DNA of 6,252 nt from Oscillospiraceae bacterium. Lineage in GTDB: Bacteria > Bacillota_A > Clostridia > Oscillospirales > Ruminococcaceae. The stretch covers positions 1 through 6,252 of the forward strand of contig JAFWUX010000240.1 of NCBI GenBank assembly GCA_017523995.1, written 5' to 3'. Positions 1,425 to 6,252 of this stretch are shown here, in pieces. Position 1 is the stretch's first letter, and each line of letters begins with the position of its first letter. The notes under the pieces are model-generated. The model searched no databases. It had not been told where the DNA came from and worked only from the letters and a program-made list of their open reading frames with translations. Position numbers and translations under genes: made by a program.

Positions 1425-1499
1425 GATACTATGAAACACAAATCCATTCTGCGCAAACTCACAGCCGCTTTACTGTCCTGCACGCTCTGCTGCACTAGC

Positions 1500-1519
1500 A
1501 TGACGGTTCCGGTTTTTTC
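1500..1519 (+). repeat. Signal-peptide coding repeat, copy in A
   Basis: ATGACGGTTCCGGTTTTTTC encodes the end of the signal peptide (MTVPVFS). It recurs identically at 3093-3112 in B and with one change at 4776-4795 in C. It is a trace of tandem duplication and a possible site for recombination between the paralogues. Confidence 0.8.
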
Positions 1520-2045
1520 AGCAGACGAAACAACCGAACTGCCGGAGCGTTTTGATTACCGGGAGGCAGCACCGGAGATCCTGACGCCGGTCAAAAACCA
1601 GGTCGGCGAAACCTGCTGGGCGTATTCTGCACTCTCCTGTATCGAATCGAACATGATACGGAAGGGTATGGCAGATAATAGTATTGACCTTTCTGAATCG
1701 CATCTGGTCTGGTTTACGCTCGGGCAGGGTTTCCCGACAGATCCGGAAGATCCGCGGTACGGCGGCGGAGTGAAATACGGGAGTGAAGCGTATGATGCCG
1801 GCGCCTATATCACGATCGAACAGGCCTCTCATGCATCATGGCAGGGTGCGGTTGCCGAAAGCGATGCCGCTCCGATCTCCGAACTGCCCGTGCTGAACGA
1901 ATCCCTGCGTTATCAGTCTGTCGCACATGTGCAGAACATGCCTTATTACACATATCCAAACAGAAGCAGGGAATTCACGAAGCAGCTGCTCCTAGACAAA
2001 GGTCCGCTGAGAATTACCTATTTTCAGAGCAGCCTGCACAACCTT

Positions 2046-2048
2046 TAA
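2046..2048 (+). other. In-frame TAA stop within peptidase A
   Basis: Context is CTT TAA AAA AAC AGC, codons 205-209. In gene C the aligned codons read CTC TCG GAT AAA AGC, so the stop aligns with Ser204 of C. A single C-to-A change from TCA would create it. The stop borders a run of seven A (2047-2053), where sequencing or polymerase slippage is possible, but a single indel would not keep the downstream frame as it is. Confidence 0.85.
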
Positions 2049-2828
2049 AAAAACAGCGGTTACTACAATCCGGACTATTTGACGGAAATGAAGGCCGGTC
2101 TGGAGAAAGGAAAGGATCACTGTGTCCAGATGGTCGGCTGGGACGATCATTACACAAAAGAAAATTTCATGAAGGAACCGCCGGAAGACGGGGCATGGAT
2201 CATTCGGAACAGCTGGGGGGATTATGCTAACTCGGAGGATGGTTATTTCTACTTAAGCTATTATGAATCGACCATATCACTGATCACATATTTTGACTGC
2301 GAGCCTGTTACGAATTATGGCAGCAATTACAGCTACAGTTGCACCCACATTTCCGCATGGCCCGCGCATTCATTAAAGCATGGGTATTATTCGGCAAATG
2401 TCTTTGAAGCACAGAAAGACGAAAAGATCGAGGCAGTCGGCTTTCACACGGTCCGGATTTTTTTCGATCCGGCACAGTATGAAATCTCTGTCTGGTTACT
2501 GGATTCGGAGCCGGAAGGTCCGCAGGACGGCATGATCGTCGGTCAGTTCACAGAAACGCTTGAATTCTCCGGATACTATACGTTGAAGCTGCCGGAAAGC
2601 ATTGCAGTCAAAAAAGGGCAGAAGTATTCTGTTGTGATGAAAACGCCGCTCGGGACCCAATGCTTTTTTGATAAAGCAAGTTATAAAGAAGGCGTTTCCT
2701 ACTACGCGTACTACACGGAAGATGAAGGAGAGCCGACTGACTGGACAGACTGCTTCGGTACAGAGTACGGCGATGTCTGCATCCATGTATACACTGAGTA
2801 TGAGGGCGAGACTGAAGACTGCATCCGC

Positions 2829-2996
2829 GGAGACCTGAACCGTGACTGCAAAGTGAATGCTGTTGATCTTTCACTGCTGAAACAGGTACTGCTCGGCAGC
2901 GAACGGACAGACATTGACCGAAAGGCGGCAGACTGGAACGGCGACAACGCAATGAACGCAGAGGATGTGAACGGGATGCTTGAATTTTTGCTGCAA
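2829..2996 (+). other. Type I dockerin domain of peptidase A (after the stop)
   Basis: Two duplicated Ca-binding segments: loop 1 D468-D479 (DLNRDCKVNAVD) followed by LSLLKQVLLGS, and loop 2 D501-D512 (DWNGDNAMNAED) followed by VNGMLEFLLQK. Asp/Asn ligands at loop positions 1, 3, 5, 9 and 12 are all present. Cys473 replaces the usual Gly at position 6 of loop 1. It is nearly identical to the B dockerin in segment 1. It would bind a cohesin on a scaffoldin, but lies behind the TAA. Confidence 0.88.
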
Positions 2997-2999
2997 AAA

Positions 3000-3019
3000 G
3001 AAGCGTAACGAAAGGTGGG
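3000..3019 (+). repeat. Conserved 20-bp gene junction, copy 1 (A/B)
   Basis: GAAGCGTAACGAAAGGTGGG covers the last two codons and stop of A and the ribosome site of B (AAAGGTGG). The same 20 bases occur at 4683-4702 between B and C. The B start at ATG 3024 is 5 bases after AAAGGTGG, preferred over the GTG at 3015 that lies within this ribosome site. Confidence 0.9.
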
Positions 3020-3023
3020 CGCT

Positions 3024-4691
3024 ATGAAACACAAAAACATTCTGCGAATGCTTACGGTGGGCGTGCTGTGCTCCACGCTTTGCTGTACCGTCATGACGGT
3101 TCCGGTTTTTTCGGCGGAAGGAACCGAAGAACTGCCTGCACGCTTTGATCTTCGTGATGAAGGTGCCATCACTTCGGTCAAAAGTCAGTATCACGGCACA
3201 TGTGTTCTGTTTGCGTGCTTTGCTGCGATCGAATCCAATATGATCAAAAAAGGTATGGCGGATTCGACGCTTGATCTTGCTGAACAGCATTATTCCTGGT
3301 TTTCCTACGGCAAGAGCGGTCCGGACGATCCGGATGACCCGCTTTCAGGCGATTGGGAACAGGACGGTCTGAACTGCTATAATCATGGTGCAAGCTATTG
3401 GCTGGTAACGGGTACGCTGGCTTCCTGGACGGGTGTAGTTCCTGCCTCGCAGATCCCGGACTGCGAACAGTTTGTCGAGATCGATGAATCCCTGCGCTAT
3501 GCTGATATTGCGCACCTGCAGAATGCACGGTTATTTGATATGGAAGATACGGAGGGAATCAAGCGCGCAATCATGAAAAATGGCGGAATGCACATCGGCT
3601 ATTTCAACGTAAGAAAACCGGAGCATTATTCCCAATATGGCGGGTATTACCAATCTGATCTGATGGGCACCGATGATGATGATCCCTCCAAGCTGGACGG
3701 CGGCGGACATGCAGTCTGCCTCTGCGGATGGGACGACAATTTTCCGAAAGAGTATTTTATCGAAACGCCGCCCGGTGACGGTGCATGGATCTGTAAGAAC
3801 AGCTGGGGACCGGAAACAACTGCCGGTGTTGATGGCTATACCTACATTTCCTATTACGATCGCTCGCTCAGCAATCCGATGCAGTTTGATATGGAGCCTG
3901 CGGATAATTATGACAGTATTTATCAGCGCTGCGGCAGTATGCGAGCTGCATATACCACATCCAATCGCGGCTGGGTGTATTCCAATATCTATACCGCAAA
4001 AAAAGACGAAAACCTTACTGCCGTTTCGATCGTAACTCATGAAGCAGATCTGCCTTATGAGATAAGCATCTATGCGCTGAAGGATGGATACGAAAACCCG
4101 CGTGACGGTGAGCTCCTTGCACAGATCAGCGGCACGGAACATTATGCCGGATATCATACATATCCGCTGGAATCATCCTGTACAGTTGCGGCCGGACAGA
4201 CGTTTTCTGCCGTTGTCAAGACAGGGATTCACCCCTCCACGACGACCTTTATGGACAAGAATCCGGATAATTCCGGAACATCGTTCTATCTGCTGTATGA
4301 TGAGAAGGGGGAGTCCTCATGGCATGATGCGACAACAATCAACGATCACGGGAATGTTCTAGTCAAGGTGTTTACGAAGGACGGTACCGCGGTCAATGAG
4401 CAGAATTATCCCGATCCGCTTTACCGTAAAGCTGAATCGGATGCTTACGATAAAAACGGGGATTATGTCATCACCGAAAAGGAGCTTGCAGAAGGCGAAC
4501 AATACCTTTGCGGCGACCTGAATCGTGACGGCAAAGTGAATGCCGTTGACCTTTCGCTGCTGAAACAGGTGCTGCTCGGCAGTGAGCGCACAGACCTTTG
4601 TCTATTGGCGGGAGATTGGAACAGGGATAAGGCAATCAGTGCAGAGGACGCCAGAGGAATCCTTGGTTTCCTGCAGCAAGCGGAAGCGTAA
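3024..4691 (+). CDS. Peptidase B: secreted C1 (papain) family peptidase with EF-hand loop and dockerin
   Basis: A complete 555-residue protein. Residues 1-30 are a Sec signal peptide (MKHKNILRML, core, VPVFS). The mature papain-fold domain begins right away (LPARFDLRD), with no I29-type propeptide. Catalytic residues are in place: Gln55, Cys60 (YHGTCVLFACF), His229 (GGGHAVCLCGWDD), Asn259 (ICKNSWG). The near-invariant Trp after the Cys is Val61. A lectin-like beta domain covers about 300-452. A canonical EF-hand loop follows at 476-487 (DKNGDYVITEKE), absent from A and C, and then a type I dockerin at 497-550. It should be exported and held on a cohesin scaffold outside the cell, hydrolysing peptide bonds; the substrate is unknown. 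It starts 15 bases after A, shares the operon promoter, and could suffer polarity from the stop in A. The Trp loss leaves some doubt whether it is catalytically normal. Confidence 0.9.
   Translation: MKHKNILRMLTVGVLCSTLCCTVMTVPVFSAEGTEELPARFDLRDEGAITSVKSQYHGTCVLFACFAAIESNMIKKGMADSTLDLAEQHYSWFSYGKSGPDDPDDPLSGDWEQDGLNCYNHGASYWLVTGTLASWTGVVPASQIPDCEQFVEIDESLRYADIAHLQNARLFDMEDTEGIKRAIMKNGGMHIGYFNVRKPEHYSQYGGYYQSDLMGTDDDDPSKLDGGGHAVCLCGWDDNFPKEYFIETPPGDGAWICKNSWGPETTAGVDGYTYISYYDRSLSNPMQFDMEPADNYDSIYQRCGSMRAAYTTSNRGWVYSNIYTAKKDENLTAVSIVTHEADLPYEISIYALKDGYENPRDGELLAQISGTEHYAGYHTYPLESSCTVAAGQTFSAVVKTGIHPSTTTFMDKNPDNSGTSFYLLYDEKGESSWHDATTINDHGNVLVKVFTKDGTAVNEQNYPDPLYRKAESDAYDKNGDYVITEKELAEGEQYLCGDLNRDGKVNAVDLSLLKQVLLGSERTDLCLLAGDWNRDKAISAEDARGILGFLQQAEA
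4449..4484 (+). other. Extra EF-hand loop in peptidase B
   Basis: Residues 476-487 read D-K-N-G-D-Y-V-I-T-E-K-E: acidic or Asn ligands at positions 1, 3 and 5, Thr at 9, Ile at 8 and Glu at 12, the canonical 12-residue EF-hand pattern. It lies in a linker of about 45 residues between the lectin-like domain and the dockerin. A and C have only a short linker at that place. Confidence 0.75.
4509..4673 (+). other. Type I dockerin domain of peptidase B
   Basis: Loop 1 D498-D509 (DLNRDGKVNAVD) then LSLLKQVLLGS, and loop 2 D531-D542 (DWNRDKAISAED) then ARGILGFLQQ. Calcium ligands are complete in both loops. The presumed recognition positions 10/11 and 17/18 are A-V and K-Q in repeat 1 but A-E and L-G in repeat 2. 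The two halves are thus unlike, which argues for one preferred binding orientation rather than a symmetric dual mode (inference). Confidence 0.9.
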
Positions 4692-4702
4692 CGAAAGGTG
4701 GG
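4683..4702 (+). repeat. Conserved 20-bp gene junction, copy 2 (B/C)
   Basis: Exact second copy of the 20 bases at 3000-3019, covering the stop of B and the AAAGGTGG ribosome site 5 bases before the ATG of C at 4707. The retained junction supports tandem duplication of a whole gene unit. Confidence 0.9.
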
Positions 4703-4706
4703 TACT

Positions 4707-6252
4707 ATGAAAAAGCATTCCGTTTTACGAAGAATCACAGCAACATTGCTATCCAGCACACTCTGCTGCTCAGGCATGACGGTTCCGGCTTTTTCGGTGG
4801 ATGAAACAGAAAAACTCCCTGCACGCTTTGACTGGCGCGAGGAAGCACCGGAGATTTTGACGCCAGTCAAAAAACAGGTCGGCGGCACCTGCTGGGCACA
4901 TGCAACACTCGGCTGCATTGAATCAAATATGATTCGGAAGGGGATGGCGAACAACACCATTGACCTTTCTGAATCGCATCTAATCTGGTTCACGGAAGGG
5001 CAGGATTCTCCAACCGATCCGGACGATCTGCGATACGGCGGGGGCCGGAATCTCAGAAAAGATGCCTATGATAACGGGACCAAGTTGTTTGGCATTGCTG
5101 CATCACTTGCAGCATGGCAGGGCGTCGTGTATGAAGATGAAGTACCGTCTCATTCCCAAAAGCCGGAACTCGATGAATCTCTGCGCTATCGGTCTATCGC
5201 ACATTTGCAGAATGCAGAGTCCTATGATACAAATGATGTTATGAATGCCAAGCACCAGCTGATGAAGAAAGGACCCTTGTTTTTGAGCTATTTCAACGAC
5301 CATAATCATCCGCTCTCGGATAAAAGCGGCTACTATAATCCAAACTATACATGGGAAAAAGACAATGCCGGTGAATTAGATGGAAACGGTCATGCCGTCA
5401 TGATCGTCGGTTGGGATGACAATTATCCAAAGGAATCCTTCAATGATTCGCCGCCGGACGACGGTGCATGGATTTTGAGAAACAGTTATGGTGACAGTTA
5501 TAAGAACTCAGATCATGGCTTTTTTTATATGAGCTACTATGAACCGTCCATAAACACGATCGGTTCCTTTGATTGTGAACCGGTTTCGAATTACGGCAGC
5601 GTGCATCACTACAATTGCGCTCAACTATCCTATCGCATCCCGCCTTCTCAGACATACGGCTTTTATGTTGCGAATGTATTTGAAGCCGCGAAACCGGAGA
5701 AACTAACTGCGGTCGGCTTTTTTTCAGAGAATGCTGCCATTTCGTACGAGCTCTTTGTATACGCGCTGAATGATGATCCCGCGAATCCGCAGGACGGCAC
5801 GCTGGCAGCAAAAACAGAAGGATTCTCAGAGTTCAGAGGTTTTCATACAGTAAAGCTGCCGCAGAGCATTGCCGTTGAAAAGGGGCAGAAGTATTCCGTT
5901 GTACTGAAACTGCCGATCGGTGCCGGAACACACTTTGATACCGGTTGTTACAAAGAGGGCGTTTCATACTATGCTTATTATTCTGCCAAAACGGCGGATC
6001 AGGAAAAAAGAAGCTGGTCTGACTGTTATCAAAAAGAGATGGGCGACATTTGCCTTCATGTGTATACAGAGTACGAAGGCGAAACTGTGCCGACGCTTCC
6101 CGGTGATATGGACCGCAACGGCAGACTGACAGCCGCCGACCTCTCGCTGATGAAACAAGCGATCCGGCAGCCGGAACGTTCCGACCTGTATCAGCCTGCT
6201 GCTGACTGGAACGGTGACAGCGAGATCAATGCAGAGGATGCACGCGGTTTGC
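4707..6252 (+). CDS. Peptidase C: secreted C1 (papain) family peptidase with dockerin, 3' end outside window
   Basis: The frame is open for 515 codons from ATG 4707 to the window edge, with no stop. Residues 1-30 are a signal peptide (MKKHSVLRRI, core with Cys20-Cys21, VPAFS). The papain-like domain begins at LPARFDWRE and has Gln57 and Cys62 (KQVGGTCWAHAT), His229 (GNGHAVMIVGWDD) and Asn259 (LRNSYGD; Tyr instead of the usual Trp after Asn-Ser). A lectin-like domain covers about 300-456 (YVANVFEAAKPEKL...KGQKYSVVLKLP). The dockerin starts near 466 and is cut inside its second repeat; probably only some 10-20 residues are missing. It is the closest relative of A in the peptidase and lectin-like parts and appears to be the intact version of it. 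It should be an active secreted protease held on a cohesin scaffold; the substrate is unknown. It follows B by 15 bases in the same operon. Confidence 0.92.
   Translation, partial: MKKHSVLRRITATLLSSTLCCSGMTVPAFSVDETEKLPARFDWREEAPEILTPVKKQVGGTCWAHATLGCIESNMIRKGMANNTIDLSESHLIWFTEGQDSPTDPDDLRYGGGRNLRKDAYDNGTKLFGIAASLAAWQGVVYEDEVPSHSQKPELDESLRYRSIAHLQNAESYDTNDVMNAKHQLMKKGPLFLSYFNDHNHPLSDKSGYYNPNYTWEKDNAGELDGNGHAVMIVGWDDNYPKESFNDSPPDDGAWILRNSYGDSYKNSDHGFFYMSYYEPSINTIGSFDCEPVSNYGSVHHYNCAQLSYRIPPSQTYGFYVANVFEAAKPEKLTAVGFFSENAAISYELFVYALNDDPANPQDGTLAAKTEGFSEFRGFHTVKLPQSIAVEKGQKYSVVLKLPIGAGTHFDTGCYKEGVSYYAYYSAKTADQEKRSWSDCYQKEMGDICLHVYTEYEGETVPTLPGDMDRNGRLTAADLSLMKQAIRQPERSDLYQPAADWNGDSEINAEDARGL
6102..6252 (+). 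other. Diverged type I dockerin of peptidase C, partial
   Basis: Loop 1 D467-D478 reads DMDRNGRLTAAD followed by LSLMKQAIRQPERSD, and loop 2 begins D500 (DWNGDSEINAED) before the window ends. Loop 1 has Asn at position 5 and Thr at 9, where A and B have Asp and Asn, and the LLGS segment is replaced by IRQP. It is still a dockerin but clearly different from those of A and B. Confidence 0.85.

Follow-up and report, generated by a model that had tools for sequence, protein, structure and literature searches.

Three protease genes lie in tandem in the stretch of DNA from a rumen member of the Oscillospiraceae analysed here (the window, 6,252 nucleotides), and the question raised by this locus is which of them has changed its C-terminal dockerin, and by exchange with what. 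The plus strand carries in order a DUF4003 ORF (2-814), a small ORF and the tandem genes A, B and C, each built of a leader, a papain-type (C1) peptidase, a lectin-like domain and a dockerin of type I. Two types of dockerin are involved: T1, the common one (NAVDLSLLKQVLLGSERTD), is carried by A and B, and T2 (LTAADLSLMKQAI..PERSDLYQPAADWN) is carried by C. The features are as follows.

1431-3008, plus strand: gene A, C1 peptidase, lectin-like domain and T1 dockerin, with an in-frame TAA at 2046-2048
1431-1523, plus strand: leader of A
2784-2813, plus strand: HVYTEYEGET segment of A, conserved in A/C-type bodies, directly 5' of the break
2814-2822, plus strand: best break in A by maximum chi-square, C-like upstream and B-like downstream
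2829-3005, plus strand: dockerin of A, T1 with a DRK-type repeat 2
3009-3116, plus strand: spacer and leader of B
3024-4691, plus strand: gene B, C1 peptidase, lectin-like domain and T1 dockerin, of the B-type body subfamily
4512-4688, plus strand: dockerin of B, T1 with a CLx-type repeat 2
4692-4799, plus strand: spacer and leader of C
4707-6252, plus strand: gene C, C1 peptidase, lectin-like domain and T2 dockerin, cut by the end of the window
6057-6086, plus strand: HVYTEYEGET segment of C
6102-6252, plus strand: dockerin of C, T2, continuing beyond the end of the window

The array matches the Pfam profiles PF00112, PF18560 and PF00404. Scores for PF00112 were 45.6 bits in B and 61.7 in C, with the match in A split into 30.3 and 23.5 (cut-off 20.7), and those for PF00404 were 43.4, 38.5 and 31.8 bits in A, B and C respectively (cut-off 22.9; C is shortened by the window end). 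All three genes have the Gln, Cys, His and Asn residues that we take to be catalytic in PF00112. Among the relatives described below the Cys column is Cys in 46/48 A/C-type and 32/33 B-type rows, the remaining three being gaps, and the Asn column is Asp in 10/48 A/C-type rows. The residue after the catalytic Cys (the column of C residue 63) is Trp in 46/48 A/C-type rows, with gaps in the other two, and in 0/33 B-type rows, which have G, V, C or others instead. Asp occupies calcium-loop positions 1 and 12 of each dockerin repeat in 81/81 rows. The full C protein is P0001, of 577 residues, with zero differences in the 514 that were compared. P0064 departs from B at a single residue, as does P0074 from the 3' part of A, and each of these three proteins has a longest listed contig of 11,824 bases. 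The TAA in A may be genuine decay or an assembly error. A relative, P0024, is identical at 506 of 522 compared residues, has the same dockerin and lacks the stop, and intact copies therefore exist. A longer linker precedes the dockerin in B (4377-4511) and includes an EF-hand-like stretch, DAYDKNGDYVITEKEL. Upstream of A on the minus strand (1234-1262) there is a perfect TTGACA-17-TATAAT beside a terminator-like hairpin (1203-1226); a promoter scan gave 7 promoter-like sites against 7.7 expected, and nothing matched Rfam at the gathering score.

Genes A (1431-3008), B (3024-4691) and C (4707-6248) were aligned by codon, and the mosaic described in the earlier note was recovered. A resembles C in the peptidase (146/255 identical residues, against 98/253 for A and B and 113/255 for B and C) and in the lectin-like domain (89/169, against 60/165 and 59/165), and in dockerin repeat 1 the pattern flips, with A and B identical at 27/28 residues, A and C at 13/29 and B and C at 14/28. 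The flip is confined to repeat 1, identities in repeat 2 being 13/27 for A and B, 12/21 for A and C and 13/21 for B and C. Over the leader (first 31 residues) the genes are closer to one another than over the bodies, with nucleotide identities of 0.76 (A and B), 0.74 (A and C) and 0.66 (B and C). When A was treated as the child, maximum chi-square placed a break at alignment columns 506 (nucleotide) and 508 (amino acid), equivalent to 2814-2822 and within the 2810-2830 interval given in the earlier note; it was reached by 0/1000 permutations, with p 0.09 for third positions alone. With B as the child a break at column 508 was found at the nucleotide level (p 0.008), and taking C as the child gave no significant result at any of the three levels (p 0.10-0.54). 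The three-gene test alone implicates A, not C, as the recombinant. Among the three genes the synonymous sites of the bodies are saturated or nearly so, so three sequences alone can neither date nor orient the event. The test breaks with A as child, weakly with B and not with C; relatives are required to tell which gene changed.

Relatives were collected by two protein searches, with C and B as queries, which listed 120 proteins each and 202 overall. The 110 rows aligned were the three window genes, 87 proteins out of the 202 and 20 ORFs from genomes; removal of 24 rows whose dockerins were of other kinds and of four that had none left 82 (67 T1 and 15 T2), of which three match another row's body exactly, and the second gene of L071 is nearly the same as P0003. 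The tree of the bodies, a quick tree with SH-aLRT support only, has two sides, each with starred support of 100: a B-type side of 33 rows and an A/C-type side of 48 rows plus the long-branch P0044, which was dropped from later A/C-type counts. The likeness of the A body to that of C is therefore old subfamily kinship. Arrays in the genomes G002, G003, G006 and G017 likewise contain both A/C-type and B-type genes. The proteases were found in eight genus genomes out of 30 searched, a family-wide search of 396 genomes, with at most three candidates scored in each, gave nothing above 38% identity beyond those genus genomes, and a scan of viral contigs with P0002 as query found no relative. The four relatives that have a record title come from Oscillospiraceae MAGs, and the labels of three are goat omasum, sheep omasum and water buffalo rumen. 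The fourth gene of the G003 array (L068:11864-12226) has an A/C-like start and is open for 120 residues only. When B is compared with L071:294-1712 identity climbs along the gene (peptidase 80/192, lectin-like domain 115/169, dockerin 49/56), which may be a further mosaic within the body, although this L071 gene appears frame-shifted.

The T2 dockerin of C is about 50-65% alike to T1 dockerins. Within repeat 1 the two types differ at positions 11 and 19-22 and agree at 10, 17 and 18, and repeat 2 is mostly common to both. T2 forms a single clade in the dockerin tree (starred support of 99), dockerin trees being likewise quick, with SH-aLRT support only, noisy and based on 56-57 columns, with 6/73 inner branches starred in the 57-column tree. 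On the body tree (67 T1 and 15 T2 rows) T2 needs eight changes, of which starred branches force at least seven, counts that give no direction, and a T2 clade imposed on the body data was rejected (AU p 5e-34). Dockerin data in turn rejected the body tree for the 45 A/C rows (AU p 4.6e-6), for the 31 A/C rows with T1 only (AU p 1.2e-95) and for the 33 B rows (AU p 1.4e-6); the rejection of dockerin trees by body data carries little weight, the trees being noisy. As this rejection of the body tree extends to T1-only A/C rows and to B rows, exchange reaches beyond T2, and the idea that it might be limited to that type was discarded. T2 occurs in 0/33 B-type rows, which are without HVYTEYEGET and have a different linker. 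A single T2 gene (87-98% to the query) was found in each of G002, G010 and G017, genomes that also have T1 dockerins and cohesins; the other five of the eight genomes had no match this close, the next best being 65%, in assemblies whose completeness is not stated. Among T2 matches below E 1e-10 in the eight genomes, 16/17 were within the same protease family.

Bodies and dockerins in this family have incongruent histories, with breakpoints and synonymous contrasts, and these are clearest in pairs that share one part and differ in the other. P0002 has a 99%-identical C body with a T1 dockerin: identity to C is 256/258 in the peptidase, 167/168 in the lectin-like domain, 29/56 in the dockerin and 12/20 in the first 20 residues of the leader (P0002 was compared as protein only, and its longest contig is 3,081 bases). 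The reverse is seen in G017, in which a T2 gene comes after a B-type gene, the same order as in the window. The body of this second gene (L071) is 61% identical to that of C (242/399; nucleotide identity 0.69/0.60, dS 1.9 or saturated), and its dockerin is that of C (nucleotide identity 0.98, dS 0.06, 23/24 four-fold sites identical). Both G017 genes appear frame-shifted N-terminally; for the second, a protein that is almost the same, P0003, is intact. The contrast is the other way round from G017 in L073 (T2) and L074 (T1), which have bodies with nucleotide identities of 0.91/0.92 and dS of 0.28/0.19 and dockerins at 0.60 with dS 2.8, whereas L073 and L076, both T2, have bodies at 0.64/0.59 and dockerins at 0.93 with dS 0.31. 

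The best explanation of these data, to which a probability of roughly 0.8 can be given, is that C is the recombinant, having acquired its dockerin by exchange, and that A and B kept the T1 dockerins of their own subfamilies. Two old body subfamilies, A/C-type and B-type, stand in this tandem C1 peptidase array, and in the family the C-terminal dockerin, often together with the tail that follows it, recombines separately from the protease-lectin body. Breaks fall at the lectin-dockerin joint, where HVYTEYEGET followed by GD and R residues is common to A/C-type genes. The C body occurs elsewhere with T1, in P0002, and the T2 of C occurs elsewhere on quite different bodies. The mechanism is probably homologous recombination between related copies, whether in one genome or across genomes. 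The earlier note had raised the case that the C dockerin alone diverged quickly while A and B kept the ancestral one; A and B do appear to have kept it, but the C dockerin appears to have been replaced rather than to have evolved fast.

The positions of the breaks were examined in pairs with close bodies. In 14/16 close-body T2/T1 pairs, which have members in common and are not independent, the best break was at C residues 457-473, the lectin-dockerin joint; in the remaining two, P0008 versus P0022 and P0010 versus P0022, it lay earlier, at residues 395 and 410. Mirror pairs, six picked from 13, had the best break at 451-472 in 6/6. For C and P0002 the exchange break is at residues 467-469 (about 6105-6113). 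The break zone contains HVYTEYEGET and the GD..R dockerin start, both well conserved in A/C-type rows, and we infer that this shared segment is the likely crossover zone.

Two tails follow the dockerins of this family. One of 275 residues with a HELAH motif was found in the T2 rows P0004, P0008, P0009, P0011, L073 (8756-9580) and L076, in part in P0013, and as the first 42 residues only in P0015. The other, of 217 residues, follows T1 in P0005, P0006, P0016 and L075 (with only its start in P0040) and T2 in P0017 and P0076; only its start is found in C and P0010, and in P0001, the full C protein, it is recognisable after residue 521 for ~41 residues and then departs. The 217-residue tails of P0076 (T2) and L075 (T1) are 98% alike and their dockerins differ, which places breaks both before and after the dockerin. 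Against Pfam the two tail modules gave nothing over the cut-off; in P0076, P0017 and L075 there was a PepSY hint below it. A search with the L073 dockerin and tail gave 38 matches, 12 of them with T2, all A/C-type proteases, and 19 new tail relatives (P0203-P0221) had HExxH in 19/19 and the T2 motif in 0/19. The HELAH tail looks like a metallopeptidase and would make a two-protease protein.

The junctions between genes were also compared. The A dockerin, the spacer and the B leader make up one junction block, which resembles the B/C block at 213/291 aligned columns; in 30-base steps 27, 27, 23, 21, 20, 21, 22, 16 and 20 bases of 30 agree, and finally 19/21. In the G003 array the junction after an A/C-type gene was compared with that after each of its two B-type neighbours. 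The bodies are at nucleotide identities of 0.51-0.52, the last 60 coding nucleotides match at 58/60 and 59/60, and over five 30-base steps through the dockerin end, stop, spacer and next leader 24-30/30 bases agree per step, 29 or 30 of them in 7/10 comparisons. These matches indicate that neighbour gene conversion is real in the G003 array, and it is not seen at A and B in the window. One reading of such blocks, unlikely but not negligible, is that the array is a cassette system in which the dockerin end, spacer and next leader act as homology arms between which bodies are moved as units, into a single T2 slot among others. It would be consistent with C and P0002 sharing a body and differing at both leader and dockerin, with the G003 junction blocks being near identical over about 150 bases, and with the leaders of P0020 (A/C-type) and P0126 (B-type) being identical at 31/31 residues, eight of them non-consensus. 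If true, the T2 slot would dock elsewhere on the scaffold and strains would vary the protease at each place.

An exchange between neighbours, by gene conversion or by trading of dockerins, had been the suggestion of the earlier note. Its general part holds up, in that dockerins recombine separately from bodies at the lectin-dockerin joint and neighbour conversion occurs in G003, but a trade between A and B themselves is disfavoured and must be rated improbable. The break at 2814-2822 is indeed found with A as the child, and the A and B dockerins are identical at 15/21 four-fold sites, above the 8/19 to 13/22 seen between A and seven other B-type genes. However, their nucleotide identity of 0.77 is not above the 0.67-0.80 found between A and seven B-type genes from other genomes, and the last 60 nucleotides agree at only 41/60. 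The subtypes of repeat 2 moreover track the body subfamily: its start in T1 dockerins is DRK-like in 22/33 A/C-type rows (CLx in 10, other in one) and CLx-like in 30/33 B-type rows (DRK in three), with A having DRK and B CLx. Over all arrays the raw mean dockerin identity between A/C-type and B-type genes was 0.767 within the same array (n=5, two from one array) versus 0.703 for other pairs (n=51).

That the contrasts come from chimeric metagenome contigs, assemblers having joined genes at the conserved leader and the dockerin repeats, is quite improbable. Members of the family are most alike in leader and dockerin, P0002, P0003, P0017 and P0076 have longest listed contigs of 1.9-4.0 kb and L071 is on a 3.2-kb contig; yet the T1/T2 contrasts persist between the longer contigs L073 (50.7 kb), L074 (187 kb) and L076 (114 kb), the P0001 and P0002 clusters contain 14 and 9 member sequences, and the T2 bodies are deeply divergent. 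Purifying selection that held the dockerins while bodies diverged and the C dockerin drifted, with no recombination, is scarcely credible, since although many of the compared pairs have a better conserved dockerin than body, the synonymous contrasts go both ways (low dockerin dS in C/L071, low body dS in L073/L074), which rules against it, and T2 needs its eight changes on the body tree.

Dockerin exchange in C corrects the simpler account of an A/B swap: the exchanged gene is probably C. The PF00963 cohesin profile was over the cut-off in 8/8 genus genomes that carry the proteases, and docking is therefore plausible. Some of the dockerin positions compared between T1 and T2 face the cohesin, and a different cohesin partner for T2 is possible. 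The family provides natural matched pairs, one protease with two dockerins and one dockerin on many proteases, so that the question of cohesin partner and enzyme placement becomes directly testable.

As module shuffling the exchange is ordinary in kind and unusual in its frequency and in the precision with which it can be seen. In the literature searched, tandem protease paralogues that exchange dockerins were not reported, nor was module shuffling mapped to a few codons, recurrent in one family and visible between near-identical alleles. Tandem paralogues can undergo concerted evolution through gene conversion, and the homogenised dockerin end, spacer and next leader in G003 resemble this, whereas the junction blocks of the window array are only moderately alike (213/291 columns). 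Among known systems, PMC3573020 describes RflaF_05439 of Ruminococcus flavefaciens FD-1, which has an NlpC/P60 fold and an X-dockerin dyad that binds ScaE; it is likewise a dockerin-borne putative cysteine peptidase from a rumen cellulosome bacterium, but the array has PF00112, PF18560 and PF00404 in place of the NlpC/P60 fold and X-dockerin dyad reported there. The dockerin groups of R. flavefaciens have group-specific cohesin partners (PMC5301203); they are similarly discrete dockerin classes within one cellulosome system, whereas T1 and T2, about 50-65% alike, are known here by sequence, and in the eight genomes T2 matches are nearly confined to one protease family. Finally, domain shuffling among R. 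flavefaciens strains was noted for xylanases and suggested to occur readily in enzymes of this species (PMC2721979), which is again module exchange in cellulosomal proteins, a process by which the diversity of cellulosomes is said to increase, seen there as whole-module architecture and here as a break mapped to a few codons and recurrent.
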